From: Cymodocea nodosa
Lineage: Eukaryota; Streptophyta; Magnoliopsida; Alismatales; Cymodoceaceae
Direction: 5' to 3'
Assembly (NCBI GenBank): GCA_036874045.1
Contig: CM072335.1
Location: forward strand, 11,676,001 to 11,740,000
Length of the DNA: 64,000 bases
Position numbers and translations under genes: made by a program. Numbering within the stretch: position 1 is the stretch's first letter; every line of letters starts with the position of its first letter. Of this stretch, positions 23,370 through 63,200 are shown one piece after another. The notes beneath the pieces were generated by a model. That model was not told the origin of the DNA, searched no databases, and saw only the letters and a program-made list of their open reading frames with translations.

Positions 23370-23375
23370 AGTTTT

Positions 23376-30748: not shown

Positions 30749-30784
<36 letters not shown>

Positions 30785-31192: not shown

Positions 31193-31206
31193 TAAGTGTG
31201 GGGGGG
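31193..31206 (+). other. polypurine tract of the Athila-type element
   Basis: TTAAGTGTGGGGGGG abuts the 3' LTR start at 31207. The preceding GACTAGCAAAGC is shared with the second Athila-type element at about 52650-52676 (GACTAGCAAAAT then TTAAGTATGGGGG). Confidence 0.85.
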
Positions 31207-32741: not shown

Positions 32742-32746
32742 GTTTC

Positions 32747-39779: not shown

Positions 39780-40987
39780 TGTAGGATCATCTGTATCACA
39801 AGAAGGGGGTGAATTGTGTCTTTAATAATTAAAATACTAGCAGATAAAACAAGAGCACAAAACACTCGTAAATAAAATTCTATTCTTTATGTAAAGACAA
39901 AATTTACAATATCTTTTTAGCTCAATTCCCTTCTCAACGGTTTTGATAGAGTAATGTTCGATATACAATTCAAATAGAAAAATAAAGCTCTTATTCAAAA
40001 CTAATTTCGAATTGTATAAAACCTGATCTTTATGCACACAGCTTCTTTCCTTCTCTTTGCTCAGCTTTTATATCTCTTCTTCTCTAGTTGTCGAATTTTC
40101 AGACTTCTTACGTTTGCAGCTGCTTTTCTGAAATTGCTTGGAATTTCGAACTTCTTCTGATGTTGGAGAACTTTTCAGAATATGAATATTCAAACTTAAC
40201 TTTTCAATTAGGGATCTGGATTGAATATTCAGACTTGGATTTTGAGATTGGGATCCTCTATTGTAATGTAGCTCATACTCTTTATTAGTAGTTGAACTTT
40301 GTTGTCTTTCACGTTCAACATGTTCATCCTCTTAATCCATAATCCACATACTAATTTTTTCATTAATCCAAATTACTATTTTTTTGAGTTTCCACTTTCT
40401 CCACTATAATTTTGAATTTCCACAATCTCCACTTCGTAGATTCACCGAGACTTTATCTTCCTGGAGTCTTATAGAATATCTTCTAAGTCTTCGATTTAGT
40501 CGAGCACTTATCCTTTAAGTCTTGTAAAAACTCGAATACTTATTTGTAACTCTTCGAGTTTTTGCACCTGCAAAACACGTGACTAAACATAGCAAACTTA
40601 TCTGTTCGTTAGTCATTTTATAAAACTCGAATAGTTATCTATCCATGTATATAAAAACTCGAACAGTTATCTAACTATTTGATTTTCATTACCGAACGCA
40701 CATGGAAAAACACGTGACAACTTAAAACATTAAAAACACACGTGCAGATAACTTAACTATACGAGTTTTTAACATAAACTATTCGACAAAAACGAAATGT
40801 TAACTATCCGAAAGTTTAACTATCAAAAATCTAACTCTTTGGAAATCTTTAACTTATCCGACATAAAAATGAAACTTTCCGATAATCTATTAACTATTAT
40901 ACTTAGAGACATATACTTAGAGAATATTATTTAGACATATTTAAAAACTTTAATAAAGCATATATCATCAAAACAAAATTCCTAACA
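39780..40987 (-). mobile_element. solo LTR of a copia-like family in the satellite
   Basis: This 1208-bp segment starts TGTAGGATCATC and ends ATTCCTAACA, flanked by CTTGG (39775-39779) and CTTAG (40988-40992), a target duplication with one transition. The satellite unit continues without loss across it. Its minus-strand start matches the truncated LTR at 7608-7912. It carries CTCGAATAGTTA and TAACTATCCGA sites and CACGTG words (about 40500-40880). No internal region remains. Confidence 0.88.
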
Positions 40988-41193
40988 CTTAGTACTCTAA
41001 TTATACTAAGTTAAGATGTTACAAAATTTGAGTTAGAGAATACAAACCTCTGGATATCAAAGACCGTTACAATGGCAAATTTTGATCACGATGTCATTCA
41101 ATATATGACATTAATTTTGGAAACCGTTATCAACAACAGGGTTGTCTCTTGGTGACAGTTTGATTTACAAAAAGACCATCCTATTATGATGCT
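40988..41193 (-). repeat. 5S satellite remnant (partial unit)
   Basis: About 200 bp of spacer sequence continuing the unit interrupted by the solo LTR. It ends at CTATTATGATG, where the truncated copia fragment is joined. Confidence 0.88.
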
Positions 41194-42479
41194 ATTAGTA
41201 TTGATGATGTTGTTCACCTCATAGATATTATATACTTATTATAAATATCTAAAGAAATATCTAAACTGCTGCTTAAGATACTATGTATTTATTGTAAAAT
41301 CATAGTAGTATCTTATTGATTTTAAGTAGTTTATCAATTTTAATGTTTTTACGATTTTAAGTGGAAGTGTAAATGAAAAACATTAAATACTTCTAACATT
41401 CTGAAATTTTGATTAAATATTTTCTTTGAATCAAAAAAAATGCATATGATCATGCATAAATTTGACTTAATTGATTAAACTTGTAGAATAAGTTATATGT
41501 AACTCATCTTAAACTATTAATCAAAAGTATAAGCTTATTGAAACTGATTCATATTCTCAGTATAATCATAGAAGTAAAAATTGTATGTGATTTGTGTTTT
41601 ATTGCATCTGTATTAATGGAATACATATATACTGTGCTTAAAATGAAAAGTGCTTACAAAGTGAATATCTTTGAGAGTTTATTGATCAGTTTGATCACCA
41701 GCCTTTTGTACTTGAGCAGATAAGTATGTAAGGATTGTTGTCCTAAAAAATGATTCTTTAAATCTGGCAACCTAAGGTCCTGATCAGATCTAAGATTGTT
41801 GACTGAAAGCTCATTACACGGGTACATTAGAAAGCTCTTGTATGATTCAAGCTTTTCAAACTAACTTTTAAAGAAAATTATCAATATTTACTGTTTTGAA
41901 AAGAAAAAGTTGTTTCATTAATTACAAATATCTTTGAATCGCATATAGTTTATACCAATATGACTACTGATTTATTGAATCAACATTAGTACTTTTGAAA
42001 ACGTTTATTTGAGATACATTCTTTTATTCTCCTTGAATTAATCGAATTGAGTTCAAAGTTGTGTTTTTGATTCATATACAGTAGAAATTGATTCTGGAAA
42101 TCATTTTTGATGATGTTAGGATAACGGAAGTCTCTGAAAAGAAAATGTAAAAGTATAGTTATACTTAACATCTATTGTCACTACAAGTATATTTTGTATT
42201 TTAATTGAATATATTTGAAGTATATTTGTAGGGGGAGCATTAACAATGTCAAAAACAGATTAATATAATTTAAAATACAAATCTTAGTTAATCTGAATTA
42301 GTGTCCTCTTAAAATCTTGATGAAATAATTTAAAAAGACAAATAAACTATTCTAGATTCAAAAGACAAACTGTTCAAATAGTTTACAATGTTCTCAAGAT
42401 AATGTTAAGTTTAGCATGTGTGTTGTTTTCGGAAGGTTTTAGTTGGAAGCATCTGAAACTTGTTTAAGTGTACTAACTA

Positions 42480-42675
42480 GACGTTATATTAGATAAGGTA
42501 ACGTGTAAAACTGCCTCTAGACAGCGTTTTACTCGTTAGGTTAGTTAACTCAACGAGTTATACTTGAATATTTCGGGTACCTTGATTGAATAAACTTTAT
42601 TCAATATTTATTTATTTCTAAACCTGACTTATCTTCACGTTGAGTTATACGCCTAAAAACCCTATTTAAACACTT
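42480..42675 (+). promoter_or_regulatory. internal promoter-like region of the copia accessory ORF
   Basis: TAACTCAACGAG and CTCGTTAGGTTAG sites at about 42530-42560, CGTTGAGTTA near 42640 and a TATA-like TATTTAAA at 42663-42670 precede the ATG at 42751 by about 80-220 bp. The minus-strand copy at 17255-17460 keeps the same arrangement. Confidence 0.5.
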
Positions 42676-42750
42676 ATTACACGGGGACTTAGGTTATTTG
42701 TAAACTTTGTCAAGAAAATCTTTCTCGCTTGTTGCTGTTACAACCTACAA

Positions 42751-43918
42751 CGATGGTTTCCAAGTTCTACAAAGGTCGTGGCAGAGGAAAAGGCAAAAGC
42801 AGAAGAGATGCAAAAGGAAAAGAAATAGAGAATGATGAAGTTCCACGTACTTGGTTCAAGAAAATATTTCGAGTGGACAAAAGGTTAGAAGAACTTTATA
42901 GAGATTACTACTTTTCTCAGGATATATTAGATGAAGTTAGACAAGAACTTCAACATACTGATGCAAGTATTACATACATGGGTATTCGAAGTAAATATGA
43001 TAGAGAATACAGAATGAAATGTGCTAAGATTGCATTTTTGGAACAGTATGCAGAATATTTGGAAAAAGGTGTAGGTTCATCAAATAGAACTCCTCAAACT
43101 CCTATAAACGGTACAAGATTACCTACTCCTTTATATTCAAAACAAGTAGAATCAGATATTGCTGTAGACAAAACAAAAGTTGATAGTCTTCGAAAGGCCG
43201 TTGCAATAGAAAGTGCCTTAGAAGAATTAAAGCAGAAAACTTTTATGGAGCAATTTGAAAAGAAAACAGCAATACTTGAAGAGGAGAAACAGAAATGTTA
43301 TAGAAGAAGAAAAATCAGAAAAATTATGTCTAACGAAACAAAGTCTATTAGAAAAGGACAATCAGATGAAAATTTATTTCCAAAGGACAATGTATGTTTA
43401 GACATTGTACCTTATTGTGCATCTGATAAACTCATCAGTTCCGAACACATTGAAACTGATGAAGATAATGAGACTTTATTTTCCCTTGCTAGAAAGCTTG
43501 AGAAGAAATACAAGTCAAATATGAGCTCAAGTTTTTCTATTAGTACAAGTCCTGATGATGCAGAAATTGACAAATCAGAGCATTAGGCACCTGACATTGA
43601 ACAAGTTATTGCAGATATAATTGACAATGTTGAGGCAGTAACTAGTTCAGAGGCTGAATTGTCTGGAGTAGCAGATATTGAAATTGTTAAGACTCTAGAA
43701 GAGCTAAAAGTTAACCAGCCTTCTACAGAATCTATAGAAGTAGAGTCTAAGAATTCACAGCATGAATCAATGGAAATATCTGTTGAACAAAATGAACAAT
43801 TACAGACAGATACACCGGTTGTAGAATTTGTGGAAAAATTGTACTCTGAACATTCTATAGAGACTGAACAGATGAATGTTGAGCATATTGACAATGTTCC
43901 TAACACTATTGAAGCTGG
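42751..43918 (+). pseudogene. accessory ORF, N-terminal part (truncated copy)
   Basis: Starts at ATG 42751 (MVSKFYKGRGRGK). It is open to a TAG at 43584-43586, where the copy at 16320 has CAG, and then continues in frame to the deletion join near 43919. It contains the basic N-terminus, the WFKKIFRVDKRLEELY segment, a coiled-coil-like EEEK/RRRK region and the acidic Ser-rich middle. The C-terminal conserved domain is lost and the frame runs on into LTR sequence. This copy is better preserved than 14919-17190 and shows that the stops there are secondary. Confidence 0.75.
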
Positions 43919-44612
43919 AGAAAATTTGAAATATAAACGTGGGTTAGAACGTGTGTGTTTCGATGAAGGAAAAAGAAAAGACGTGGAGAAGTGGAAAACT
44001 AGTGGTGGTTAAATGTGAAGGATATGCATGGAATGAAGATACAGTATAAAAGGCATAGAATTCTCGTTGATCAATTTATCCTTGCACACAAAAAGAAAAA
44101 TCTTTTCAAGGATCAAAACCATCCCTGCACACCAAAAGAAAAATCTTTTTCAGGGATCAAAAACACCTTCTCGGGGAAAATCTCTCAAGTGGAAGAAAGT
44201 TCAATGAAGCATAAAAAGGTAAGATTTTCGTCACTGAAGATTTGAAGTATCAGAAGAAAGCAAATTCGGTGAAGCATGAAAAGACAAGATATTCGTCACT
44301 GAAGAATTGCTGAAGAAGAAAAAGAAGAAGAAGAAAGATCTCAAACAGGGAGAAAAGTTTTAAATTCCGCAAATTAGTTTTCTCTGTTTGTAGTTATAAA
44401 ATTGTTTAGATGATACATGGTATCGAAATATAATTACATCTACAATTTCTGAGGAGAATTGAATTGTATATTGTAATTGAAACCTTGAATAAAAATAATT
44501 TTATGAAAACAATGTCTCGACTTGTTTTTGAGTTTTAAAGTTTCGATTATATTTTAGAAAATATTAAAAATACACAATTCACCCCCCTCTTGTGTAGCCA
44601 TACGATCCTACA
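43919..44612 (+). mobile_element. partial copia LTR (R/U5 part)
   Basis: Matches the reverse complement of about 35223-35916, including the TATA-like GTATAAAA near 44044-44051 and the terminal CATACGATCCTACA. U3 is missing. Confidence 0.88.
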
Positions 44613-44629
44613 ATTAGAATAGACAGGAT

Positions 44630-45865
44630 AAGAAATTGTTCTTGTCAAGAGTAAAATATTACTATTGGGAAAAACCATACTTATTTAAGAAATGTCCTGA
44701 TATAGTTTTAAGGAGGTGTGTTCTAGAAACTGAATATCAGAGTATATTGTCTTTCTACCATAACCAAGCATGTGAAGGGCATTTTGGTTCAGGGAAAACT
44801 ACTACAAAAATTCTGCAATGTGGATTTTATTGGCCAACACTATTCAAATATGCTTATAAATATTGCTTAAGTTGTTTAAGATGTCAACAAATAGAAACAA
44901 TATCAAAGAGGAATATGATGCCTCTTAATCCTATTGTTGAGGTTGAAATCTTTGATGTGTGGGGAATAGATTTTATGGGTTCATTTCCTATGTCTAATCA
45001 ATTTAATTATATATTGTTGGGGGTGGATTATGTATCTAAATGGATAGAAGTTATTCCTACAAAAACTAATGACAACAAAGTGGTAATACATTTTATAAGA
45101 ACCAATATAATTGCCAATTTTAGAATACCTAAAGCTATTATCAGTGATAGAGGAACTCATTTCTGTAATAGAAGTTTTGAAGCCTTAATGAAGAAATATG
45201 GAGTGAACCACAAAATTGCAACATCATATCATCCGCAAACAAGTGGACAAGTAGAAAGTGCCAACAAACAAATTAAGTTAATCTTAGAAAAAGTAGTAAA
45301 TCCTACTAGAACAGATTGGGCTAATAGATTGATAGATGCACTTTGGGCTTAAAGAACTACTTATAAGACAAGCTTAGGTATGTCGCCTTTTAGGCTAATA
45401 TATGGAAAAAGTTATCATTTACTAGCTGAAATTGAACATAAAGCTTATTGGGCATTAAAAACCCTGAACACTAATTTAAATCAAGCTGCTGAAAATAGAA
45501 AAATACAATTGATTGAATTAAAAGAATTTAGGAATGAAGCTTATTCAAAAATTGTAAAAGAAAAAGTGAAAATGAAGTTCTAGCATGATAGGAAAATTAT
45601 TCCAAAAATCTTTGAAATAGGACAAGAAGTATATCTTTACATGACTAGACTCCATAACCATCCAAGAAAATTAAAATCTAAATGGGTAGGACCTTACATA
45701 GTTCGAAATATTTATCCCTATGGAGCTATTGCGATTGAAAATCCTAAAAATCAGAATATATTTAAAGTAAATGGACAAAGACTTAAACCTATTTTGAAGA
45801 TACTAAAAAGTTCTTTTGGAATTATAGAAGAAGTAAGAGTAAAGGACTACTCGAGCTTTACTTAG
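44630..45865 (+). pseudogene. Athila-type integrase (pol C-terminus)
   Basis: The frame opens just before the HHCC finger (HNQACEGH...CLRC). It contains MMPLNPIVEVEIFDVWG and acidic residues in GIDFMGS, IISDRGTHF and SGQVESAN, then the C-terminal GPYIVRNIYPYGAIAIENP region, ending at 45865. Stops are at about 45351 (ALWA-stop) and 45582. Upstream pol domains are absent: the element is cut at 44613. Confidence 0.92.
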
Positions 45866-46259
45866 TAAGAAATCATTTTTTTTAATATAAAAAAAAACTT
45901 ATTTAAACATAGTTACGGTTAAATTGAAAGGAATTATTAGTTTTATTGAAGCACATTTTAAAAGAAAAAAAATCATTGCGGTTCAACTGACAGGATCCAT
46001 CGATTTGATTGAAACATAAAAACATAAAGAAATTTACATATTATTTAGTAAAAATGTCGGTTTTACCGAAGCATAGCATTAGTTCAACCAATAGAAAAAA
46101 AGAAGAAAGAAAATATTTAATTTCGGTTCAACCAAGGAATATAACAGTTTGACTGAAGAATTTTTAAAATATGGAAAAAGTAAGAGCGGTTAGATCGGAA
46201 ACTTTTTGATCTTGACCGAAGAAAAATTATTATTTTAAATATTTTTATTAGATATAACT
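45866..46259 (+). other. non-coding region with CGGTT/AACCG-type repeats
   Basis: No ORF is visible. Repeated words such as GCGGTTCAACTGA, TCGGTTTTACCGA and TCGGTTCAACCA (about 45970-46220) suggest a second kind of short motif array downstream of pol. Confidence 0.45.
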
Positions 46260-46269
46260 TTACGAAAAG

Positions 46270-46480
46270 TTCGTTGAGTTATAGTTAACTCAACAAACTT
46301 ACTCCATTGAGTCTAGGATTAGTTAACAAACTTACCCCGTTGAGTTAACTATAACTCAACGGAATACTGTAGTTAAGTCCACGGACTTAGTCCGTGGAGT
46401 TAACCGTAATTCCACGGATGAGAGAGCGAGAGTTTTGTATGGGAAACAACCCGATTACCCGCCTAAACGTAGGGCTTATT
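46270..46480 (+). promoter_or_regulatory. motif pairs and TATA-like region upstream of the accessory ORF
   Basis: Convergent pairs with a 7-bp spacer occur at 46286-46314 (degenerate) and 46374-46402 (TAAGTCCACGG, ACTTAGT, CCGTGGAGTTA), plus a divergent pair near 46337-46362. A TATTTATAC lies near 46478. The arrangement parallels that before the copia accessory ORF. Confidence 0.5.
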
Positions 46481-46581
46481 TATACTTAAACTTAGGGTTT
46501 TGGGGGCATTATCCGCAGAATCATTTAGAACTTAGACTAGTAGAGATCAGAGCGACTCCGTGCCATTATGTAACTCCACGA

Positions 46582-47149
46582 TGAGATAACACTAGAGCTT
46601 CTCCACAACATTCTAGGATTGAAAAATGAAGAACTAAAAATTCTAGAAGACACAACTACAATCGAGTGGACAGAACAGACCATAAAGGATTGTTTAGCTA
46701 TCAATCCTGGTGTGCCATTATTAAATAGACTAAAGTAATTAAATGGTAAAGCACACATGATAGCTAACATTTTGATTAAGAATGTCTACCAACGATAAGG
46801 CCACGATATAGAACTGAGTCAATTTGTCAAATGGGCCACATATGCAGTTGTGAATAGAATTCAAATAAATTGGTTTGCAATTTTTATCTCCAAGATAAGA
46901 ACAGTGAAGAAATTATTTTATGGAGATCTAATTCCACTGTTGATGGTGGACTATATCGATTTCACTAAATGAGCATCCAAAAGGATAAGATCTAGAACCA
47001 TTTCAGTGAAAGAGTACAGAAATTATGCTGCTGTAGAGATTGATGAACCTTCTAGAGGAATTACAGGAGTTGTAGAAAGGATTAACTAATTAGAGCAACA
47101 AGTAGAAAGACTCCAAAAGGAAGTAGATGAACTTAGGAGAAGAGATTAA
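46582..47149 (+). pseudogene. accessory ORF of the second Athila-type element, C-terminal domain
   Basis: Only the conserved C-terminal domain is left: LGLKNE, IANILIKNVYQR-stop-GH, WATYAVVNRIQINWF, LFYGD and ISVKEY. A heptad-like tail (LEQQVERLQKEVDEL) and the final LRRRD, stop 47147-47149, follow. In-frame stops occur at about 46737, 46797, 46968 and 47086. The N-terminal half seen in the copia copies is absent. Similarity to the copia domain is clear across the whole block, which places the same module in elements of both superfamilies. Confidence 0.75.
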
Positions 47150-47630
47150 ATTGTATCGTTCATCTACTTGTACTTGTATATATTTGTTTGAAAAATATCT
47201 GATTGATTGTAATGTAAATTATTCATATTAATGAATATATGTTTTTCAAATGTATTTTTCATTCGTGTTTTGAGAATGATGAAATGGATGAACTATATTG
47301 AATATTATATAACTTGTGGAACATTATGCAAGATTGTTTAAAAGATTTACAATTTGTTGAATGACAGGATTAAATGAAAGATAAATGATAGGATTAAATG
47401 AAAGATAACTGATTAATGCTGAAAATATCTGCATGCTGCAAAGTAAAATATAAATTCTGCATAATATAAAATGAGCTGTAAGTTAAATATTTATATAATG
47501 TTCAAATTTAAATGAGTTTTAATTAGAATGATGCATTAATGACATGTATTTAACTTTATTTAAGTTAACAGAATGTAGGAGAGAAAAACATAGAAGTTAG
47601 TACGAGGAGTGAGTTTTAGAAATTTGCCAA
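47150..47630 (+). other. AT-rich non-coding stretch, nothing recognised
   Basis: No ORF, RNA or array is visible between the accessory ORF and the next motif array. A short direct repeat (ATTAAATGAAAGATAA, near 47370 and 47393) is present. Confidence 0.4.
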
Positions 47631-47634
47631 GTGT

Positions 47635-47986
47635 TAACTCAACGAAGTAAGTTCGTTGAGTTAAACTTAACTCTACGAGGTCAATAATATAATATACGGT
47701 CACTCCATTGAGTGATTTGTAACTCAACGAAGTTAGTCCGTGGAGTTAGCAATAGTAATCGAAGCTAATCCGTTGAGTTAACTATAACTCAACGAGGTTA
47801 GTTCGTGGATTAAGCTAAATAGTTATTCTTTTTAGCCACGAACGAAACTTCATGGGTTTAGCGGTTACTAAAAATTTAAAAATTAGAAGTGGCACACGTA
47901 CCCATAAAAATAGGAACCACACTACACGTTACAAGACACGCTCTTGCAACGAGATTTATTTGCTTTATGGACGTGCATTATAAATA
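47635..47986 (+). promoter_or_regulatory. motif pairs and TATA box upstream of gag
   Basis: Convergent pairs with 7-bp spacers lie at 47635-47663 and 47720-47748. A divergent pair (47770-47780 and 47785-47795) and a single TAACTCTACGA (47668) are also present. TATAAATA at 47979-47986 is the clearest TATA box in the window and lies about 330 bp before the gag ATG at 48319. Promoter function is inferred. Confidence 0.55.
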
Positions 47987-48318
47987 TAGAATAGAATGTT
48001 ATTTACTAGTTACTAGCAGTTTTGAAAGAAAAGAGAATTCATTAGGGAACTGGAAGGAAAAGCAGCTGATTCAACTTCATCCGTCAACAAATATTTATTG
48101 AATATAAAGCTTCAGACTGGTATGTAATTAATCTTTTGCTATTTTACTATATGTTAAGATTTTATGAGCACATGGATTCATTTTCCTAGCACTAAATGAT
48201 TAGTAAGAACACCTACCCAGGATTATTCAACACAGAGGCGTACTGAAATATTTTCTGAATTGGACTTTAACGAAATCCTTAGGGGTGTAGCTAACATTTC
48301 TTTAAAGAGAACGAAGAT

Positions 48319-49504
48319 ATGGCTGCTCTAGTAAAAAAACCATTAGGAGAAATTCTGTATCCTGAATTAGTTGATGAACCTTCATGTATTTGATTGCCAA
48401 ACTTTGAGGGAGATAGGTTTGAACTGAAATCTAATTATATTAGTCAATTACCACATTTTCATGGATTAGAAAGAGAGGATGCCTATTATTTCCTTAGAGA
48501 ATTTAACAAAGTTTGTCAAATGATGAAAATGCCAAACATGAGTATAGATGCTATTAAACTTAGATATATCCCTTTTGCTTTAAAAGACAGCTAAAAGATG
48601 GTTATATACTCTGTCGCTTGATTCAATTTCTGCATGGACTGAATTTTACTTTGTTTTTCTAGAAAAATATTATCCAACACATCAAACAATTAAAAAGAAA
48701 AAAGAAATATTAATGTGTAGCCAAAAATAGGGAGAATCTTTTTGAAAATATTTTGAGAGATTTAACGATTTACTAACTCAATGTCCACATCATGCAATGA
48801 GTAAAGCACAATTAATAGGTATAATTTATGAAGGCATAGATGTTTCAATGAAATCTTTATTAGAATCTACTTGTCAGAATGGATTTTTAAAACTATGTAG
48901 TGAAGAAGCATGGGCATATTTAGAAAACTTTGCAAAAAGGACTGCACAATGGGAAAACTCGGCTGAAGCTATTACAGATAAAAGAATATTACCAAGGGGA
49001 ATGCATGAAATAGATTCAAGCACTATGCTTGAAGTAAAATTAACTAAATTAACAAAGAAAATAGAAAAGTTATCATTAAATCAAAATCTAGCAGAAAAGA
49101 ATGCAGACATTAATGATCTAGATATTATTTATGCTAGAAACCAGAAAGATAACTTTGGAAATTCTTATAACCCTAATTGGACAAATCACCCAAATTTATC
49201 TTGGAGAAACAACAATTTCCAGGGAGGAGAAAATATAAATGACAAGAATATAAGTTATGAAGCATTAATTGAATAAGGATCTAGAATAGAGAAATTAGAA
49301 AAGATAATCCAACAATTAAATAATCGTTTGGATCTTGTATTTGGAAATGCTGCAATTCAAAATCAAAATAGAAACATACCACTTAGATAGAAGGAATCAA
49401 TGGAAGTTAGACCTATTGGAGGATTGCCAATACAAGCAATACCTAACCTTGTCAATAGAACTGTTAATGAAATTGATACCTCCTCTAGGAGGGTAGCTGA
49501 ATGA
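48319..49504 (+). pseudogene. gag: gag of the second Athila-type element, downstream of integrase
   Basis: The ATG at 48319 gives MAALVKKPLGEI and parallels the MAA start of the gag at 28336. The capsid-like region follows: RFELKSNYISQLPHF, LRYIPFALKDS, then a frameshift near 48590-48600 and further breaks, FNDLLTQCPHHAMS and LLESTCQNGF. GNSYNPNWTNHPNLSW is conserved, but the CCHC knuckle present in the other gag is not seen before it. The stop is at 49502-49504. Like the gag at 28336 it lies 3' of the integrase, which argues that the pol-gag order is a lineage trait. Confidence 0.82.
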
Positions 49505-49604
49505 AGTAGTGTAACTGAAGTAACTATGTATAATATAGTAAGTAGAAAAATATAAAAAAAAATATAAGTTTACTTATAGTTAATAGTATCTTAGAGTTAT
49601 TACT

Positions 49605-49649
49605 TAACTCAACGAACTTAATCCGTTGAGTTATGACCTAACTCCACGA
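49605..49649 (+). promoter_or_regulatory. motif cluster upstream of the F-box ORF
   Basis: Three sites lie within 45 bp: TAACTCAACGA (49605-49615), then after 7 bp its inverted partner CCGTTGAGTTA (49623-49633), then TAACTCCACGA (49639-49649). The F-box ATG follows at 49718. Confidence 0.5.
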
Positions 49650-49717
49650 GGGTGTGAAGTAGCTATGTTAATTTTTGTCTCTGCTAAATTTTTGTTTATG
49701 TTATACAAAATCAATAG

Positions 49718-50856
49718 ATGGAATTTATGAAATTACCACTAGACGCACTAAGGAAAGTGTTGAGTAGCTTGTCAGCTAAAGATCTGTGCAGATTGTGTTG
49801 TGTATCAAAAGATATTAAAAACTATGTCGAAGAAAAATATTTTCATGGACTACAAGCTGCAAAAATGACTAAGATTAGAGATGGATTTTTATGGAAGTCA
49901 TTTAGTCGTAGTTCAATTAACTATGAATATCTGAATATGAAAGAAATTGCTGGAATTCCACCCAATACATTAAAAGGAATAGATCATATTATGGGGATGG
50001 ATGAAAGATTAATTATATACAGAACCAAACCAAGGTATGCAATCCTATTACCCGACATTTTGATTAGAAATCCTATCATAAGAGAAGAATGGAATATAGG
50101 AAGGGCTAATAGATATGAAGTACCAACTGAAAATTGTGGGTTAGCTTTAATATTTTCTGATAAAAATTTGACCATTCTTGAAAAATTATATTATTAGAGA
50201 CCAACTGGAAATTGTGATGAAGATTTATGCTTAAGTGTGTATAATTTTCTGAATAGATCTTGGACTGAAAATACTATGATATATTTAGGATAGAATCATT
50301 AATTAACAATGTACATGTTATACTTAATGGATATATATATCTAGTCACAGATATATCAGTTGCATTTAGATTTGATTTATACATAGTAAGCATAGATAGT
50401 TATGATAATGACTATATAGAAATTTTGCCTATACCGAGAGATATAGCTAAACCATCATCTGTAGAATATGATAAAATTCAAATAGGGATGTGATATAATG
50501 AATATGATGATCCTACTTTATGTCTGATAAGATGGTGAAATGAATTGATGAAATTTCAAATATGGATTATGAAAGACATAAATGAATAGATGTGGGAAGA
50601 AGAATATATTGAAATAGATGTAGAAATAATAACAGCTACATTATCTTGGAATAGAAAATGATCCCTTTCTGCATTTCATTTCATTAATGGTAATACACTT
50701 GTATTTAGTATTGATAATATACTGCATGTTTACAAATTAAGAAGGAAAATGAATTGCATTAAAACAGAATTAATAGCAAGAAGAATTATGCTAAAAAATT
50801 TTGCATGGACTGACACGTTTATTCCATTTGTTATTACTTTTCAATCATGTTCTTAA
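49718..50856 (+). pseudogene. F-box protein with F-box-associated region, inside the retrotransposon
   Basis: The start at ATG 49718 gives an N-terminal F-box (MKLPLDALRKVLSSLSAKDL, then CRLCCVSKDIKNYV). The downstream frame resembles an F-box-associated domain, with FQIWIMKDIN and LSAFHFINGNTLVF at the expected distances, ending at about 50856. The total span of about 379 codons matches an ordinary plant F-box/FBA protein, a substrate receptor of SCF ubiquitin ligases. It is broken by a TAG at about 50195, a frameshift near 50290 and several later stops, and no intron is evident. It lies between gag and the 3' PPT in the same orientation, which suggests capture of a host transcript by the element. 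An older host pseudogene trapped by rearrangement is the alternative. Confidence 0.72.
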
Positions 50857-51480
50857 ATCAACAAAAATTTGTGATTCTGTGCTTTTAATGTTGTGTGTAT
50901 TTTGCATTTATTTTTAGAAAAAAAGAAGAAAAAGAAATGAAAAAATTTTTAATTTTAGTTTTATTTTAAAAGAAAAGAAAAAACCAAAATATCAATCTAG
51001 TTTGTTGGTATCTGTTCTAGGAAACCAACTAGCTTGCTTGTGAGCCACCAAAGGCATAGGAGCCTAGGTTCCACACAAGACACTAATTTATCAATATCTA
51101 TTAAATGTTATTTTGTTATATATTCTACTTTTATTCGTGAATGAAAAGTTTTTCAGAATCAAAAAATTAGAATATACAGAAGGAGATACAAAAGAAAATG
51201 CATGTAATTGATTACTTATCCTGAATTTAGGTTTAAACTAAATTCGTGAGTTATTCATTAACTCAATGAATTAAGTTCGTTGAGTTAGATGCTAAGTCAA
51301 CGAAACAATATTCATGCTTGCTACAATTATTGTATTTACTGTAAAATCTTTTACATTGAGGACAATGCAAAAAAAATAGGTATGGGGGGAGGTAATTAAA
51401 GTAACAGCTATGTAAGTTTGTTAATTAAAGGAATTAAAAGGATACTGCAAAGTTTTGTGGAAATTGCAAATTTTAATTGA
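50857..51480 (+). other. non-coding region with a motif pair and an internal PPT-like site
   Basis: A convergent motif pair with a 7-bp spacer is at 51259-51287 (TAACTCAATGA, ATTAAGT, TCGTTGAGTTA). TTGAGGACAATG followed by GTATGGGGGGAGG (51355-51393) matches the internal PPT-like site at 29990-30022 in the other Athila-type element. Confidence 0.6.
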
Positions 51481-52660
51481 GACTGTAAAATTTTTAAGAC
51501 TGTAACTATTTGAATGTTATATTTAGAATGCTATATAAGATGCTATAGAATTTACTATTTATACAAATCTAGATATAGTATCTTATGTTTTTGCTGAATT
51601 TTATGAGTTTAACAATTTCATGATTTTAAAATGAAATCAAAATGCTTAACTGAAACTTAATAAATTATCAAAAGTCCTGAAAGAGCTGAAATGTTGATTT
51701 TTAGATTAAATGAAATACATATGATCAAAGATACATTTAATTTGATTGATTAAACTTGTAGAATGATTTATGTGTAAATATTATTAAACTACAAAAAAAG
51801 TATAAGCTTATTGATATGGATTCATATTTTCAGTAAATAATGGAAGCAGGAATATATGAGATTGGTGTTTTATTGCATCTGTATTAATGAAATATGTACA
51901 TATACTGTGTTTGAAAAAAAAGAAAAAAAGAGAGAAAAACTTTGAGAGTTTATTGACTTGTTTGATCACGAGTCTTTTGTACTTGAGTAAATAGGTATGT
52001 AAGGATTGCTGACTTGAAAAAAAAAAAAAGACTCTTTAAATCTAGCAACCTAAGATCCTGATTAGATTTAGGATTGTTGACTGAAAGCTCGATATATGGG
52101 TACACTAGAATGCTCTTGTATGATTCAAGCTTGTCAAATTAACTTTTAAAGTACAAATATGCATATACTGTTCTAAAAAGATACAAGTGTTTTGTGAAAT
52201 ACAGATATCTTTTGAATCAAGTATATTTTTTGTTATCTAAGATTATTGAAGTATGAATCTAGAATAGACTTTTGAAGTTGTTTATCTAAGATACAATTCT
52301 TTATTCTACTTGTCTTAATCATATTGAATTGGATTGTGTTTTGATTCGTTTGTTGTAGAAATTTATTCTGGAAATCATATTGGTAAATTCAGGATGACAG
52401 ATGCTGAAAAGAAGAAAAAATGATAATATAATTAACAACTATGTGATGCTGATATATTTTGTATGTAATTTACATATGTTCTAAATATATTTGTAGGTTG
52501 AAGAGGAGAAAACAAAGTTAAAACAGATTACTGAAACATACAGAAAATCTATATAGTAATCTAATTTATTATTTTGAAGAAGAACGAAGTGAAGAATTAA
52601 TTCTAATACTTCAAAAAGACAAACTAGTTAGATCTTAGTTTGCTAAGGGACTAGCAAAAT
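51481..52660 (+). repeat. non-coding module shared with the copia element
   Basis: This stretch is similar to 41220-42400 (copia spacer, + copy) and to the complement of 17500-18720. Shared words include TTGATTAAACTTGTAGAAT, GTGTTTTATTGCATCTGTAT, ACTGAAAGCTC and CTCTTGTATGATTCAAGCTT. The order is the same throughout. In the gypsy element it lies before the 3' LTR, in copia between pol and the accessory ORF. Confidence 0.82.
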
Positions 52661-52661
52661 T

Positions 52662-52676
52662 TAAGTATGGGGGAAG
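52662..52676 (+). other. polypurine tract of the second Athila-type element
   Basis: GTATGGGGGAAG abuts the LTR start TGTTTAGAATG, preceded by GACTAGCAAAATTTAA as in the element at 21843. Confidence 0.8.
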
Positions 52677-54675
52677 TGTTTAGAATGAAAAAGTGCATAA
52701 TATTAACGGTTAAATGATGGTTAATTGCATAATATTTAGCTTATCATATGAGAATTAAGCCATTATGTTATAATTGCACTGTTATATACTTTAATGAAAG
52801 AATCTGCATAATTTCAGGGAATTAATGTTAATTTAGTACATTTCTAAACTATCGATAAATTACAGGCTATGAAATTCTTAAGTATCTGAATTTTCTATTA
52901 TTTCGGAGAGTTATGTTTTATGTACCGGATAGTTATGTTTTAAAGAATATTTCATTATTTCCTGAAGTACACGTGTCGAAACCATAATGCATGACTTAAG
53001 TGGATTTTCGGAAAGTTATCTGTTAACTATCCGTAATGCATCTAGGCATCGGATAGTTAGGTTTTTAGGTATTCGAAATATTTGAACTTGTTAAGTTAGA
53101 TTTATGCACATGTTGAATTTAAATGCTTTAGTATATCACGTGAGATGCACATGTTTAACTCGTTAAGTTAGCATAACTGTACGCGTAGGGTTACATGGAT
53201 GCACACTAAGGTAACGCATTATGTTAGCAACTTATTTCTTTATTGCACATATTTTATAGTTAAATCAACGAAGTAAGTCTGTTGAGTTATCTGTAACTCC
53301 ACAGACCATTTATTTTCTAATATGCCATTGTAGCGATTATAGAAACAGGACATTCGAAGGAAAACCACAATTGCACGTATCACATAGGAATTCACTCGTG
53401 GAAGGGAGAGGAAATCACCATCATTGATATGAATGAAGGAAATCCAACCGATCCTCTAAATAGAAGTAGTTACTACTAAAGAAATATAAAAGAAAAGGAG
53501 AAAAGACGAAGTGAGTGTGTAGAGGTGGACAACCATGCTATCTACAGGCAACGTTGGAAGTTCTCTGAAGCTCCACACCACCACCATAATCACCAACCAT
53601 CAGAGGTCTATGAGGATACTTTCCTGATGTCGGGTCGATTCCGATCCAAACACGGTGCTTGACAACCACTGTGAAGAGTGATCGCATCGCGGGAAGGGAA
53701 GCCATTTTCACCAAGCACTGACTCATATCTTAGGAGATCGTAAAACCTCTAGCCTTGGTTTCGGGTTGATGCCAGTATGCTGAAGAGGAGATCATCTTGC
53801 AATTCTGGACTCGCAATTCTATAGGGAGAGGAGGTAGAGTTGTAAGTGATTAAGTTTTCAGTGGTGTAATCGCGTAGCATGTAGTGACGGAAGTATTTAC
53901 TCTCGATAGAGAATTTTTACATTTCACCTTTCGCCCATTTTCATGAACATCTCAAAACAAAAATACCAAAAACAACAACTTATCTATGTTTATATTTCGT
54001 ATTTGAGTGTTGTATTGTTTATTTTGTATTGTGATTAAAGTTATCATTGTTAGTATTGTGAATGTTTTATGTTTGTTTGATTTAGAAAATAGACAATAGT
54101 ATTACAGTTTACTGAAATTGATTCGTTCTAAATACTTAAAGATTTTAATGGTTACTGTTTGAAATATCTGAATGTTAGTATTGCCTAATGATAAATCTAA
54201 TATTCACTAACATTAAAGAGCTTAATTGATATTATTTACAATCTATGGAATTGCCTAATGGTTGGCCAAATTCCTTTGTAAATGGTACTATTAAACTGAA
54301 AAGATAGGCTCGTGGAGTTAACTTAAGTCCACGAGATTAGTCTGTTGTGTTAATTGTAACTCAACGGAGTGATTACTAAACACATTATAATATAAAAAAA
54401 CAGAACAGTACACAATTCTTACTCAATTCTCTATGGGATCGACTAGTACTTGCACACAAATACAATATACACTGTGCACTTGTAGTTAAAATACAAATTG
54501 GAATTAATATCTAATTTGTGTGAAAGATTGTTTGTTTACTTCTAAAAAGAAATTATTGATATAAGCACAAGGATAAATTAACCAAGTAAAAACAGAAGAT
54601 AACAAATGCAAGTTTTCTGGTGATGTTACCTGTGAACTAAACAAGTTCTCTAGTGTCGCCTAAAGCAACCAAACA
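52677..54675 (+). mobile_element. 3' LTR of the second Athila-type element
   Basis: This 1999-bp LTR runs from TGTTTAGAATG to CAACCAAACA and matches the solo LTR at 4240-6626. U3 carries a TAACTATCCGT/TCGGATAGTTA pair with a 14-bp spacer (53024-53059) and a convergent pair with a 7-bp spacer at 53261-53289. TATAAA is at 53485-53490. GCACA follows at 54676 in the satellite; the other copy of the duplication is lost with the 5' end. Confidence 0.88.
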
Positions 54676-56745
54676 GCACATTTTGATTATGATGTCATTC
54701 AATATGTGACATTAATTTTGGAAACTGTTCCCAATAACAGGGTTGTCTCTTAGTGATAGTTTGATTTACCAAAAGACCATCCTACCACGATGCAAAAATG
54801 AGTGCAACACAAGGACTTCCCAAGAGGTCACCCACCTTAGTACTACTCTCGCCCAAACACATTTAACTTTGTAGTTTTTATGAGATCTAGTGCTTTTGTG
54901 CTGGTATGATCGCACTAAAATTTATCTATTTGTCATTACTGAATGATTGAAAACAATGTTAATTCACACTAGAAACTAGTTGAATTGGATTGTTTAAAGT
55001 TTGAAAATAAAGTTCCAATTATTTCAACACATTTGTAATGATTACAACTCTATTGAGAAAATAGCACGACACAATATACATTAAATGTTTCTCATTTCTT
55101 GGTACTTTGATTGTTGTAAGTTAAGATGTTACAAAATTTGAATGATAGAATACAACCCTTTGGATATAAAAGACCGTTATAATGGCACATTTTGATTATG
55201 ATGTCATTCAATATATGGCATTAATTTTGGAAACCATTATCAATAACACGGTCGTCTCTTAGTGATAGTTTGATTTACCAAAAGACAATCCTACCATGAT
55301 GCAAAAATGAGTGCAACACAAGGACTTCTCAAGAGGTCACCCATCTTAGTACTACTCTTGCCCAAACACTTTTAACTTTTGAGTTCTGATGAGATCCAAT
55401 ACTTTTGTGATGGTATAATCGCACCCATATTGACATATTTGTCATTAGTAAATGATCGAAAACAATGCTAATTTGCACTAGAAACTAGTCGAATTGGATT
55501 GTTTAAAGTTTAAAAATAAAGATCCAATTATTTCAACTCATTTGCAATGATTACAACTCTGTTGAAAAAATAACACGACTCAGCAGACATTAAATGTTTC
55601 TCATTTCTTAGTACACTGATTGTTGTAAGTTAAGATGTTACAAAATTTAAGTTAGAGAATACAACCCTTTGGATAGCAAAGACTGTTGTAATAGCACATT
55701 TCGATCAAGATGTCATTCAATATAAGTTATTAATTTTGAAAACCGTTATCAATAATAGGGTCGTCTCTTAGTGACAGTTTGATTTACAAAAAGACCATCC
55801 TATCATGATGCAAAAGTGAGTGCAACACAAAGACTTCCCTAGAGGTCACCCATCTCAGTATTACTCTTGCCCAAACACATTTAACTTTGAAGTTCTAATG
55901 AGATCCAACACTTTTGTGTTGGTATGATTACTCCATTATTTATATATTTATCACAACTGAAAGATCGAAAACTATGTTAATTCACACTAGAAACTAGTTG
56001 AATTGGATTATTTAAAGTTTGAAAATAAAGATCTAATTATTTCAACTCATTTGCAATGATTACAAGCTGTTGAAAAAATAGCAAGACACAACAACCATTA
56101 AATGTTTCTCGTTTCTAAGTACTCTGATTGTTGTAAGTTAAGAGGTTACAAAATTTGAGTCAAAGAATACAATCCTTTGGATATCAAAGACTGTTATAAT
56201 GGCACATTGTGAGCATGATGTCATTCAATATATGACATTAATTTTGGAAACTGTTATCAATAACTAAGTCGTCTCTTAATGATAGTTTTATTTACCAAGT
56301 CACAATCCTACCATGATGCAAAAATGAGTGCAACACAAGGACATCCCAGAGGTCACCCATCTTAGTATTACTATTGCCCAAACGCATTTAACTTTAGAGT
56401 TTTAATGAGATCTAGTGCTTTTGTGTTGGTATGATCGCACCCATATTTATATATTTGTCATTACTGAAAGATTGAAAACTATGTTATTTCGCACTAGAAA
56501 CTAGTTGAATTGGATTGTTTAAAGTTTGAAAATAAAGATCCAATTATTTCAACTCATTTGCAATGAGTACAACTCTATTGGAAAAATAGCATGACACAAC
56601 AAACATTAAATGTTTCTCATTTCTTAGTACTCTAATTGTTGTAAGTTAAGATGTTACAAAATTTGATTCAGAGATTACAACCCTTTGGATAGCAAAGACC
56701 ATTATAATGGCACATTTTGATCATGATGTCATTCAGTATATGACA

Positions 56746-56912
56746 CAAGTAGATCCATGTGAGGGAAATTAGTAATGTGTTAGGAGAAGTTGGTACAAGA
56801 AGCCATGGATACGCTTCTTGATAATGGAATTCGTGGACAAAAAATGTGGGACAGTCTTTATAAAGTTCACAAGTCCTTTTTAGATGTAATTGAGGGCAAG
56901 GAGGGAAGATTT
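56746..56912 (+). pseudogene. rpoC1: plastid rpoC1 fragment inserted in the satellite
   Basis: A 167-bp insert splits a satellite unit between TATGACA and ATTAATTTTGG. In one + strand frame it encodes [18 protein letters not shown], then a KVHKSF segment and [10 protein letters not shown], which I recognise as the conserved region of the RNA polymerase beta' subunit (plastid rpoC1). This identification is from known protein motifs, not a search. It is truncated at both ends and out of context, so it is a nuclear plastid DNA fragment. No target duplication is evident, which fits repair-type insertion. Confidence 0.85.
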
Positions 56913-59900
56913 ATTAATTTTGGAAACCGTTATCAATAACAGGGTCGTCTCTAAGTGACAGTTTAATTAAAAAAAAGACCATCCTATCATGATGCAAATG
57001 TGAGTGCAACACAAGGACTTCCCAAGAGGTCACCCATCTTAGTACTACTCTTGCCCAAATACAATTAACCTTGAAGTTTAAATGAGATCCAGTACTACTG
57101 TGTCGGTATGATCAATCCATTATTTAAAAATTTGTCAATACTGAAAGATCGAAAACTATGTTAATTCGAACTAGAAACTAGTTGAATTGGATTGTTTAAA
57201 GTTTGAAAATAAAGATCCAACTATTTCAACTCATTTGCAATGATTAAAACTCTGTTGAAAAAATAGGACAACACAACAACCATTAAATGTTTCTCATTTC
57301 TTTGTACTCTGATTGTTGTAAGTTAAGATGTTACAAAACTTGAGTTAGAGAATACAACCGTTTGGATATCAAAGACTATTATAATGGCACATTTCGATCA
57401 TGATGTCATTCAATATATGACATTAATTTTGGAAACCGTTATTAATAATAGGGTCATCTCTTGTTGAAAGTTTGATTTACCAAAAGACTATACTACCATG
57501 ATGCAAAAATGAGTGCAACACTAGGACTTCCCAAGAGGTCACACATCTTAGTACTACTCTCGCCCAAACAAATTTAACTATAGAGTTTTGATGAGATCCA
57601 ATGCTTTTGTGTTGGTATGATCACAACCATATTTATATATTTGTCATTACTAAAGGATCGAAACCTAAGTTAATTCACACTAGAAACTAGTTGAATTGGA
57701 TTGTTTAAAGTTTGAAAATAAAGATCCAATTATTTCAACTCATTCGCAACGTTTACAACTCTATTGAAAAAATAGCACGATACAACAACCATTAAATGTT
57801 TCTCATTTCTTGGTACTCTAATTGTTGTAAGTTAAGATGTTAAAAAATTTGTGTCAAAGAATACAACCCCTTGGATTTCAAAGACCATTATAATGGCACA
57901 TTTTGATCAAGATGTCATTCAATATATGACATTAATTTTTGAAACCGTTATCAATAACAGGGTTGTCACTTAGTGAAAGTTTGATTTACCAATATTCCAT
58001 CCTACCATGATACAAAAATGAGTGCAACACAAGGACTTTGCAAGAGGTCATGCATCTTAGTACTTCTCTCACCCAAATACATTTAACTTTGAAGTTCTGA
58101 TGAGATCCAGTGCTTTTGTGATGGTATGATCGCACCCATATTTTCATATTTGTCATCACAAAAAGATTGAAAACTATGTTAATTCGCACTAGTAACTAGT
58201 TGAATTGAATTGTTTAAAGTTTGAAAATAAAGATCCAATTATTTCAACTCATTTGCAATGATTACAATCTGTTGAAAAAATAGCACGACACAACAGCCAT
58301 TAAATGTTTCTCATTTCTTGGTACTCTGATTGTTGTAAGTTAAGATGCTACAAAATTTGAGTTAGAGAATACAACCCTTTGCATATCAAAGACCGCTATA
58401 ATGGCACATTTTGATCATGATGTCATTCAATATATGACATTAATTTTTGAAACTGTTATCAATAATGGGTGATCTCTTAGTGTTAGTTTGATTTACCAAA
58501 AGGCCATCCTACAATCATGTAAAAATGAGTGCAACGCAAGGACTTCCCAAGTGGTCAACCATCTTAGTACTACTCTTGTTCGAACCCATTTAACTTTGGA
58601 GTTCTAAGGAGATCCAGTGCTTTTCTGTTGGTATGCTCGCACCCATATTTATTTATTTGTCATTACTGAAAGATGGAAAACTACGTTAATTTGCACTAGA
58701 AACTAGTTGAATTGGATTGTTTAAAGTATGAAAATAATGATTCAATTATTTCAACTCATTTGCAATGATTAAAACTCTATTGAAAAAATAGTATGACACA
58801 ACAGACATTAAATGTTTCTCATTTCTTGGTATTCTGATTGTTGTAAGTTAAGATGTTACAAAAATTGAGTCAGAGAATACAACTGTTTGGATATCAAAGA
58901 CTGTTATAATGGGACATTTTGATCATGATGTATTCAATATATGACATTAATTTTGGAAACCATTATCAATAATAGGGTTGTCTCTTGGCGACAATTTGAT
59001 TTACAGAAAGACCATCCAATCATGATGCAAAAATGAGTGCAACACAAGAACTACCCAAGAGGTCATCCATGTTAGTACTACTCTCACCCAAACATTCAAC
59101 TTTGGAGTTCTGATGAGATCCAGTGCTTTTGTGTTGGTATGATCCCACCCATATTTATATATTTGTCATTACTGAAAGATCGAAACCTATGTTAATTCAC
59201 ACTAAAAACTAGTTGAATTGGATTGTTTAATGTTTGAAAATAAAGATCCAATTATTTCAACTCATTTGCAATGATTACAACTCTATTGAAAAAATAGCAC
59301 GACACAACAGCCATTAAATGTTTCTCATTTCTTAGTACTCTGATTGTTATAATTTAATATGTTACAAAATTTGAGTCAGAGAATACAACCCTTTGGATAT
59401 CAATGAACGTTATAATGTCATAGTTTAAACATGATGCCATTCAATATGTGACATCAATTTTAGTGACTATTATCAATAATAGGGTCGTCTCTTAGTGATA
59501 GTTTAATTTACCAAAAGACCGTCATACCATGATGCAAAAATTACTGCAACACAAGGACCTCCTAAGAGGTCACCCATATTAGTACTACTCTCGCCCAAAC
59601 AAATTTAACTTTGGAGTTCTAAAGCTTTTGTGTTGGTATGATCGCATGCATTTTTATATATTTGTCATTACTAAAAGATCAAAACCTATGTTAATTTGCA
59701 CTAGAAACTAGTTGAATTGGATTGTTTAAAGTTTGAAAATAAAGATCTAATTATTTCAATTCATTTGCAATGACAACAACTCTGTTGAAAAAATAGCACG
59801 TCACAATAGCCATTAAATGTTTCTCATTTCTTAGTACTCTGATTGTTGTAAGTTAAGATGTTACAAAATTTGAGTCAGAGATTACAACCCATTGGATAGC

Positions 59901-62900: not shown

Positions 62901-63084
62901 ATGTTATAAAATTTGAGTCATAGAATATAACCCTTTGTATATCAAAGACTGTTATAATGGTACATTTTGATCATGATGTCATTCAATATATGACATTAAG
63001 TTTGGAAACCGTTATCAATAACGGGTCATCTCTTAGTGACAGTTTGATTTACCAAAAGACCATCCTACCATAATACAAAAATGA

Positions 63085-63200
63085 GTGCAACACAAGGACT
63101 TCCCAAGAGGTCTCCCATCTTAATACTACTCTCGCCCAAACACATTTAACTTTGGAGTTATGATGAGATCCAATGCTTTCGTGTTGGTATGATCGCACCT
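63085..63200 (-). pseudogene. degenerate 5S rRNA gene copy (representative, right array)
   Basis: The minus strand keeps the 5' GGTGCGATCATACC-like start, GGGCGAGAGTAGTA, GGGAGACCTCTTGGG and the 3' GTGTTGCAC end. A T-run follows the 3' end. The upstream TATATAAATA on the minus strand lies only about 5-13 bases before the 5' end, not at the -28 position known for plant 5S genes. Confidence 0.85.

Follow-up and report, generated by a model that had tools for sequence, protein, structure and literature searches.

A 64-kb stretch of the Cymodocea nodosa genome (hereafter the window) contains a long terminal repeat (LTR) retrotransposon, element B, in which an accessory open reading frame (ORF), gag and an F-box ORF follow a Ty3-type integrase, and it raises the question of why one short bipartite motif, TAACTNNNCGR, recurs in the gaps in front of these ORFs and again in the LTR. 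A preliminary description of the window had listed six convergent pairs of this motif, with arms exactly 7 bp apart, and had taken their geometry as the mark of a dimeric DNA-binding protein that regulates each ORF separately. Our analysis makes it somewhat better than an even call that the pairs are half-sites that belong to RM-box-like promoter or enhancer arrays, and that such arrays have been exchanged between retrotransposon superfamilies.

Genome-wide counts were taken over the 374.6-Mb assembly; those of perfect pairs are lower bounds, and they reflect amplified copies, not independent events. A wider sample of 264 kb, consisting of the window and 20 fetched stretches of 10 kb (designated by L numbers), held 462 exact motifs. 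All 20 stretches had been picked via the motif, and the 20 seed pairs were dropped from later gap counts.

A bipartite half-site with preferred spacings

The window holds 74 exact sites, compared with 1.23 +/- 1.14 in dinucleotide shuffles, and none of 100 shuffles reached that number (maximum 6). The two parts of the site are strictly tied to each other: CGR lies 3 bp after TAACT in 74 cases and in at most 4 at every other distance from 0 to 11, and permuted letter orders of TAACT gave no more than 11 cases. When convergent pairs with up to one mismatch per arm were scanned across gaps of 0 to 30 bp in the window, 12 fell at gap 7 and six at gap 14, with two each at gaps 5 and 29, one each at gaps 6, 13 and 15, and none at gaps 0-4 or 8-12; the mean number of gap-7 pairs over 200 simulated windows was 0.015. 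A chance origin of the motif was rejected on these shuffle and simulated-window counts.

Genome-wide, the perfect pair TAACTCAACGA-N-TCGTTGAGTTA occurred at least 1379 times at gaps 5-9, at least 23 times at gaps 8-13 and at least 24 times at gaps 0-6, and its reversed control was absent (0) from each count. After subtraction of the cases off 7 bp (one at gap 5, 11 at gap 6, five at gap 8 and one at gap 9), gap 7 accounted for 1361 of the 1408 pairs counted, as lower bounds, at gaps 0-13. The 7-bp spacing predominates for this arm but is not universal: the subtype TAACTATCCGA in LTRs has its arms 13-15 bp apart, and genome-wide at least 14 pairs of the second subtype, AACTATCCGA, were found at gaps 0-12, 0 of them at gap 7. 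All six of the pairs first described are present where they had been placed, each spanning 29 bp; two exact arms occur only at 47635, 47720 and 49605, one arm is mismatched at 46374 and at 51259, and both are mismatched at 53261.

These pairs are parts of longer, mostly alternating arrays. Neighbouring motifs no more than 35 bp apart in the 264 kb were divergent in 83 cases, convergent in 64 (20 of which were seeds) and in the same orientation in 64. The convergent neighbours that remained without the seeds lay at gap 7 (14 pairs), 13-15 (19), 5 or 6 (2), 26 (5) and 29 (4), with none at gaps 8-12, and 77 of the 83 divergent neighbours lay at gaps 4-6. A tandem repeat finder reported arrays with periods of 32-33 and 42 bp.

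The three free positions of the site (N3) bear on the possibility that the palindromes serve as structured RNA, for example as a source of small RNAs or as transcript signals. N3 was equal between the arms in 9/14 gap-7 pairs and 12/19 pairs at gaps 13-15, above the chance value of 0.25, and this excess could come from common descent or from some pairing; small RNAs are also drawn to palindrome clusters in maize Sirevirus LTRs (PMC10760457, citing Bousios 2016; like the other papers cited below, consulted in part). However, N3 differed in 5/14 of these unselected gap-7 pairs and in 54/77 divergent pairs (equal in 23/77), the lack of matching in divergent pairs being expected of protein half-sites and not of RNA hairpins, and one pair with CAA in one arm and CCA in the other was retained in 7/8 aligned copies. 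The N3 pattern overall speaks for independent half-sites over hairpins; in view of the mismatches between arms, pairing was rejected as the main constraint, and we regard the hairpin account as quite improbable.

The arrays might also be the functionless product of a 32-33 or 42-bp unit that spread by slippage and template switching, and their tandem periods fit this view. The six spacers of element B, compared in either reading direction, were 86% alike against 57% for random sets, a value reached by 0/5000 of them, and positions 46274-46361 and 47708-47794 were 78% alike in a self-alignment. Because the spacers are alike, the 7-bp palindromes are probably duplicates of one another, contrary to the earlier argument that their differing spacers exclude simple duplication, and the common gap is owed partly to shared descent. 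Neutral expansion would also accommodate the finding, given below, that the free N3 positions are conserved as well as the fixed ones. On the other hand, slippage alone fails to explain why a half-site is common to the LTRs of element B and of a second element, A, which align with each other over only 154 bp at 76% identity; it likewise fails on the confinement of the motif to gaps between ORFs and on the strict tie between TAACT and CGR while N3 varies. We therefore consider neutral expansion improbable.

Arrays in front of the 3' ORFs of element B

Element B contains 17 exact motifs in its internal part and seven in its LTR, and 0/17 of the internal motifs lie in coding sequence, which makes up 4112 of 8060 bp (Table 1). 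The pair at 51259-51287, previously assigned to the LTR, lies in front of it: the LTR begins near 52677, after the polypurine tract (PPT) at 52669. Within the LTR, motifs occupy offsets 230-487 of about 2000, before a TATA box at 812, with two more at 1637 and 1684, and the last motif of the array (53294-53304) lies about 180 bp before TATAAAAG. A 5' intron is possible after the TATA-like box in the gag gap. The single motif at the start codon of the accessory ORF is exact in element B of the window and in L008, L019 and L022, has one change in L016 and two in L010, and differs more in L013.

Motif positions were counted in 11 B-type copies (10 stretches and the window; L006 and L021, which likewise contain B-type pieces, were excluded), and coding spans were delimited manually on the basis of tblastn matches and open frames. 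Two or more exact motifs stood before the accessory ORF in 7/7 copies (L016 being without integrase), between the accessory ORF and gag in 8/9 (the exception, L023, has a short gap), and between gag and the F-box ORF in 8/9 (the exception being L015), and 47,024 bp of coding span contained 0 exact motifs. The sites in front of the 3' ORFs thus recur at orthologous places, and the absence of conservation in other copies that would have spoken against the preliminary description was not observed. Seven copies had their seed in the accessory-gag gap (the accessory-F-box gap in L016), L005 had it between gag and the F-box ORF, and L009 and L023 had it downstream of the F-box ORF; without seed-bearing gaps the counts were 7/7, 3/4 (window included) and 7/8. 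Since the gap before the accessory ORF holds no seed pair, its count of 7/7 is free of the bias by which the stretches were picked. After the F-box ORF, the full palindrome was present in 3/7 aligned copies, half of it in L010 and L022, and it was absent from L005 and L008.

Whole half-sites are somewhat better conserved than their surroundings in two of the three aligned gaps. In the accessory-gag gap (8 copies), column identity was 0.875 for fixed positions, 0.907 for N3, 0.814 between motifs, 0.835 in flanks of up to 150 bp and 0.841 in the rest; the corresponding values were 0.910, 0.981, 0.768, 0.833 and 0.880 in the gag-F-box gap (9 copies), and 0.924, 0.813, 0.887, 0.889 and 0.859 after the F-box ORF (7 copies).

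The order integrase, accessory ORF, gag, F-box ORF is repeated in B-type copies wherever the pieces exist. The accessory, gag and F-box ORFs of element B in the window are broken by stops, as is the accessory ORF of A, and the B accessory ORF lacks an internal segment that other copies have. In two other copies the F-box ORF is covered by stop-to-stop frames of 292-293 codons, and this ORF is matched whole or in part in 13/20 fetched stretches. The Ty3 reverse transcriptase/RNase H of the B type was detected in sister copies only, not in element B of the window.

Table 1. Coordinates of retrotransposon features and motif arrays in the 64-kb window (INT, integrase)
Feature	Position	Strand	Remarks
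Element B	about 44614-54675	+	Order integrase, accessory ORF, gag, F-box ORF, PPT, LTR; left end lost
Ty3-type integrase of B	44618-45865	+	rve E 4.5e-14; Integrase_H2C2 E 3.5e-10
Array between INT and accessory ORF of B	46255-46417	.	5 exact and 3 one-mismatch motifs; contains pair 46374-46402
Single motif	46571-46581	+	TAACTCCACG directly followed by ATG; last base is the A of this ATG, which in other copies is the start codon of the accessory ORF
Accessory ORF of B, broken, C-terminal domain	46586-47146	+	tblastn to A accessory ORF 34%, E 2.9e-23
Array between accessory ORF and gag	47635-47795	.	7 exact motifs; contains 47635-47663 and 47720-47748; orthologous array aligned in 8 copies
TATA-like box	47979-47986	+	About 185 bp after gag array; TATA[AT]ATA in 8/8 aligned copies
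gag ORF of B, broken, 3' of pol, ends approximate	48319-49504	+	tblastn to element C gag 34-47%, E 2.7e-62
Array between gag and F-box ORF	49589-49649	.	3 exact and 1 one-mismatch motifs; contains 49605-49633; aligned in 9 copies
F-box ORF, broken	49718-50856	+	PF00646 E 1.6e-9
Array between F-box ORF and PPT	51259-51303	.	Contains pair 51259-51287
PPT of B	52669-52676	+	GGGGGAAG, then TGTTTAG
3' LTR of B, ends approximate	52677-54675	+	Motifs 52903-53304 before TATAAAAG at about 53485, plus 54310-54367
LTR of element A (Ty1/copia, Sirevirus-like)	12833-14443	-	97% to 35223-36833; array 13624-14153; 9 exact motifs
Other LTR of A	35223-36833	-	Array 36014-36543; 7 exact motifs; target duplication CATGA flanking A on both sides
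Accessory (ENV-position) ORF of A, broken	14919-17199	-	Motif pair before (17388-17411) and after (14499-14527)
copia gag-pol of A, interrupted by C	18741-34530	-	RVT_2 E 2.9e-40, gag_pre-integrs, SH3_retrovirus, zinc knuckle
Element C, Ty3, nested in A pol	21843-32739	+	LTRs 98% alike
B-type LTR with expanded arrays	4300-6640	-	20 exact motifs; 78-82% to B LTR in pieces
Element D fragment	6613-7916	+	Piece of the accessory ORF at 6613-7011; two PPTs of Sirevirus type; motif-bearing LTR from 7608
D-like LTR fragment with motifs	40484-40887	.	40678-40987 is 92% to 7608-7916
Fragment, partly B-like LTR	1633-2033	.	5 exact motifs; 1477-1855 is 80% to 52775-53137

Elements with and without the arrays

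The motif is not limited to one element, a candidate explanation that was rejected on its presence in the LTRs of A and D and in further B-type LTRs. Within this window it occurs in the element groups that have an accessory ORF (A, B and D), and no exact motif occurs in the Ty3 element C, which lacks that ORF: the 10,897 bp of C held 0 exact and four one-mismatch motifs, and tblastn with the accessory-ORF queries gave no match there. A dyad scan for a separate motif belonging to C yielded A/T runs or nothing, and that candidate was dropped. Two copia pol or gag stretches and a 695-bp piece of the A LTR also held 0 exact motifs, and the satellite (17,188 bp) had 0 exact and five one-mismatch motifs. 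By fragment, exact motifs numbered five in 1400-2110, two in 7600-7916 and five in 39781-41195, with one in the internal part of A and one in an inverted copy of A.

By its sequence, element A is a Ty1/copia element of Sirevirus-like type, so that the other large element, at 12833-36833, does not fit the preliminary description's frame, in which B is the "second Athila-type element"; the Athila lineage name for element B is that description's label. In the A LTR, motifs lie at offsets 281-810 of 1611 and TATAAAAG at 1046, with other TATA-like words inside the array. The PPT octamer AGGGGGAG occurs near 14759 and again near 14453, where AT and then TG follow it. This agrees with the Sirevirus arrangement of a PPT 10 bp before the LTR with AT/TG attachment and in more than one copy; A has two copies, and the published average is four. 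Inspection by eye found CATCATCAAAA ahead of the PPT of A and TTTTGATTATG inside the LTR, complementary at 10/11 positions, as a possible inverted repeat around the PPT/LTR junction (published arms average 28 bp). A C-rich integrase signal, CACCCCCCTC, was seen by eye about 23 bp from the LTR end. The carrier of the D fragment, for which no pol was found within the window, is presumably also a Sirevirus, judging from its PPTs, and its accessory piece matches the A accessory ORF at 51% (E 6e-40).

A non-coding sequence of about 1 kb is common to the copia element A (17674-18740) and the Ty3 element B (51519-52530) at 74-76% identity, suggesting that sequence was exchanged between these elements. 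The gag ORF of each Ty3 element (C, 23498-29631; B, 44618-49504) lies 3' of the integrase instead of before pol, and the gag of B is homologous to that of C. An inverted partial copy of A (accessory ORF and part of the LTR) occupies 41196-44613 and abuts the left end of B. Satellite with monomers of about 509 bp, perhaps a centromeric array, surrounds the LTR elements at 7914-12834, 36834-39780 and 54676-64000.

An accessory-ORF match was found in 14/20 fetched stretches and none in 6/20. The accessory ORF of the B-type copy L016 aligns with that of A at 36% over 249 residues (E 3e-49), and the A accessory domain matches Transposase_32 (PF20167) at 19.5 bits, below the cut-off of 45 (E 0.00096). 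A search of protein databases for relatives of the domain gave one match, from a 745-bp contig; an NCBIfam search for it gave no result, nor did a tRNA scan of the sequence. Among ten non-B or mixed stretches, the PPT octamer was present twice in L024 (one copy terminal) and once in L007, and absent from the other eight. Motif clusters flank the PPT of L024 on both sides, and its accessory match is weak (31% over 75 residues); L017 has an A-type accessory match of 83%, 18 sites with up to one mismatch at 2707-3251 before that match, and no octamer.

Putative promoter arrays and their possible binders

Under the promoter-array reading, a dimeric or oligomeric sequence-specific protein would bind the TAACT-N3-CGR half-sites, with an array in the LTR ahead of the TATA box and another ahead of each of the accessory, gag and F-box ORFs; each array may drive or license a separate transcript of the ORF that follows, and recombination would have moved array and accessory gene between copia and Ty3 elements. 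The per-ORF regulation and the dimeric protein that were first proposed are what we infer from the motif sequences. In favour of the reading, CpG observed/expected ratios were 1.15-1.62 in the arrays (1.17-1.62 in those of B) and 0.18-0.20 in two stretches of B outside them. The binder is about equally likely to be the element's own accessory protein or a host factor. What makes the accessory protein a natural candidate is its presence alongside the arrays in both superfamilies here, together with the predicted nuclear localisation of a sunflower Athila protein that matches the same Pfam family (PMC11728184). In a more specific form, which we hold as a doubtful extension, the Transposase_32-like accessory protein would be a transactivator or anti-silencer that binds the arrays, so that gene and arrays would constitute a mobile cis-trans module shared by Ty1/copia Sireviruses and Ty3 elements, which would give a Ty3 element with gag displaced to its 3' side separate, jointly controlled promoters for pol, accessory ORF, gag and F-box ORF: in effect a retrotransposon regulon.

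The arrays could instead be host transcription factor sites, that is, a stress or developmental enhancer of the LTR made of a host bipartite site and G-boxes and copied into the internal gaps. The G-box CACGTG is interspersed with the motif: of the 25 G-boxes in the window, 19 are no more than 150 bp from a motif (sequence this close to a motif makes up 12.2% of the window), and the corresponding figure for CACATG is 16/38. G-boxes stand among LTR-array motifs at 1825, 5985-6261, 7851-7879, 13696-14126, 36086-36516, 40576-40739 and 52970-53137. The motif is common to several families, which also suits a host factor, and TAACT might be read as a MYB-like site. To our knowledge no plant factor matches the strict 5-3-3 site, which counts against this account, as does the finding that the internal arrays of B contain no CACGTG. 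Published matches for the Sirevirus boxes are mainly stress-related, and LTR boxes also occur in four published Sireviruses that have no ENV gene (PMC2829016, Table 3); these ENV-less elements, together with the G-boxes in the LTR arrays, make a host factor as possible a binder as the accessory protein. We rate the host-site account as a serious possibility, a little short of even.

According to another alternative, the accessory protein would act like VANC, binding the arrays and removing silencing marks in cis, so that the arrays would be marks of self and need not be promoters. VANC targets are arrays of fast-changing non-coding motifs (PMC5735166, PMC10398659), and two B-type LTRs here differ strongly, with 31 and 15 sites at up to one mismatch. 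Against such anti-silencing stand the substantial CpG decay inside the motif, quantified below, and the circumstance that kinship of the accessory protein to VANC is an assumption made by analogy; we consider it unlikely.

Several observations weigh against the promoter-array reading. The CpG richness of the arrays is partly built in, because each motif contains CG: with motifs masked, the ratio was 0.70 in their 20-bp flanks against 0.41 in the rest. In the B LTR outside its array it was 0.73. Near the arrays, the CG position of the motif read CG in 462 cases and TG or CA in 159, so that about a quarter have decayed; judged from these counts, CG decay is continuing in old copies. N3 outscored the fixed positions in two of the three gaps, and the column test therefore shows no selection on the half-site, although the fast-mutating CG in the fixed part may explain why fixed positions do no better. 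Same-orientation pairs made up 64 of 211 neighbours, and 48/64 of them were 21-23 or 30-32 bp apart, distances that a decayed middle site would give. The accessory protein has no recognised DNA-binding domain, its Pfam match being below cut-off, and its domain has two matches among PDB entries (E 0.57-0.58), neither convincing. Its link to the motif rests on four element groups in one window; element A has a single motif pair before its accessory ORF there; a terminal Sirevirus PPT occurs in 1/10 of the non-B or mixed stretches (L024); and the sites of L017 could belong to the LTR of another element. From the ENV-less Sireviruses with boxes it also follows that the accessory gene is not required in cis. 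The conservation of N3, which equals that of the fixed columns, and the doubt over which element owns the L017 array lower our confidence in promoter arrays and make neutral expansion and hairpins slightly more probable.

The role of the Sirevirus boxes and of ENV-like or Transposase_32-type genes is an open question in the published accounts (PMC2829016, PMC11728184). The present copia and Ty3 elements that share box and gene, and the Ty3 element that has neither, offer a direct test of whether the gene product binds the box. Binding by the gene product would mean that plant retrotransposons encode a multi-promoter control system of their own, and foamy virus Tas and VANC are the analogues of this known to us; binding by a host factor would still leave the half-site as a defined handle for finding that factor.

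Comparison with known systems

The closest counterparts are the palindromic boxes described in 2010 before the LTR TATA box and before the ENV-like ORF of Sireviruses, the RM boxes, which the authors called Sirevirus-specific within Ty1/copia (PMC2829016). Like the present arrays, RM boxes, as described in the parts consulted, are palindromic with a CG-containing core, occur in many copies and precede the TATA box and the ENV-like ORF. RM boxes are also described as CpG islands, to which the CpG-rich arrays here may correspond. RM boxes require at least eight copies per element, a number exceeded in B; dyad symmetry, seen here as convergent arms at gap 7 and gaps 13-15; a cluster in the upper half of the LTR before the TATA box, found in both A and B; and copies before the ENV-like ORF, represented by the array at 46255-46417 in B and by one pair, 17388-17411, in A. 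The possible counterpart of the RM core CGG-CCG is CGR-N7-YCG here; CGGACTTAGTCCG at 46374 fits the RM core, and in most other pairs one or both sides read CGA or TCG. Unlike RM boxes, the present half-site is longer and bipartite, with arms 7 or 13-15 bp apart, and the motif also occurs in element B, which has a Ty3-type integrase, before three 3' ORFs. The Ty1/copia Sirevirus carrier expected of RM boxes is found in A but not in B, and the LTR arrays of A and D fit RM boxes, whereas those of B are positioned alike but lie in a Ty3 element. The earlier remark that such arrays are unusual for an LTR retrotransposon consequently needs narrowing: palindromic boxes are known from Sireviruses, and what is unusual is their occurrence in a Ty3 element and before three 3' ORFs.

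VANC proteins bind short motifs repeated in the non-coding regions of their own elements, in arrays that change fast between relatives (PMC5735166, PMC10398659), and the likeness of VANDAL elements to the present ones lies in short, quickly varying motif arrays in non-coding parts of an element with an extra gene. However, VANDAL is a Mu-like DNA transposon for which binding and demethylation have been demonstrated, whereas the present carriers are LTR elements; in the accounts consulted, the VANC motifs YAGTATTAY and AGTTGTCC/AGTTGTAC differ from ours, and neighbouring sites here mostly alternate. Foamy virus Tas, which serves an LTR and an internal promoter (PMC4929722), would work on the same principle if the arrays in the LTR and the internal ones are all bound by the accessory protein, although foamy viruses are vertebrate retroviruses and these are plant LTR elements.

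Among plant elements, an additional 3' ORF of sunflower Athila with Transposase_32, for which nuclear localisation is predicted, shares the 3' position and the PF20167 match, but the match here is below the Pfam cut-off and the consulted part of that account mentions no motif arrays (PMC11728184). An earlier case of a gene that lies between pol and the 3' LTR and is transcribed separately, from its own promoter, comes from maize Grande; that gene is antisense, and the sections consulted mention no shared operator arrays (PMC7264820, PMC11963269). Distant Athila families are known to have recombined, with env gained in the process, and copia is not mentioned in the text consulted (PMC2410132). 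Titles and abstract openings in the literature searched yielded no Athila or other Ty3 element that carries palindromic operator arrays or has its gag on the 3' side of pol. A Ty3 element that shares boxes and an accessory gene with Sirevirus-like elements, and that carries arrays before three 3' ORFs, appears to be new.

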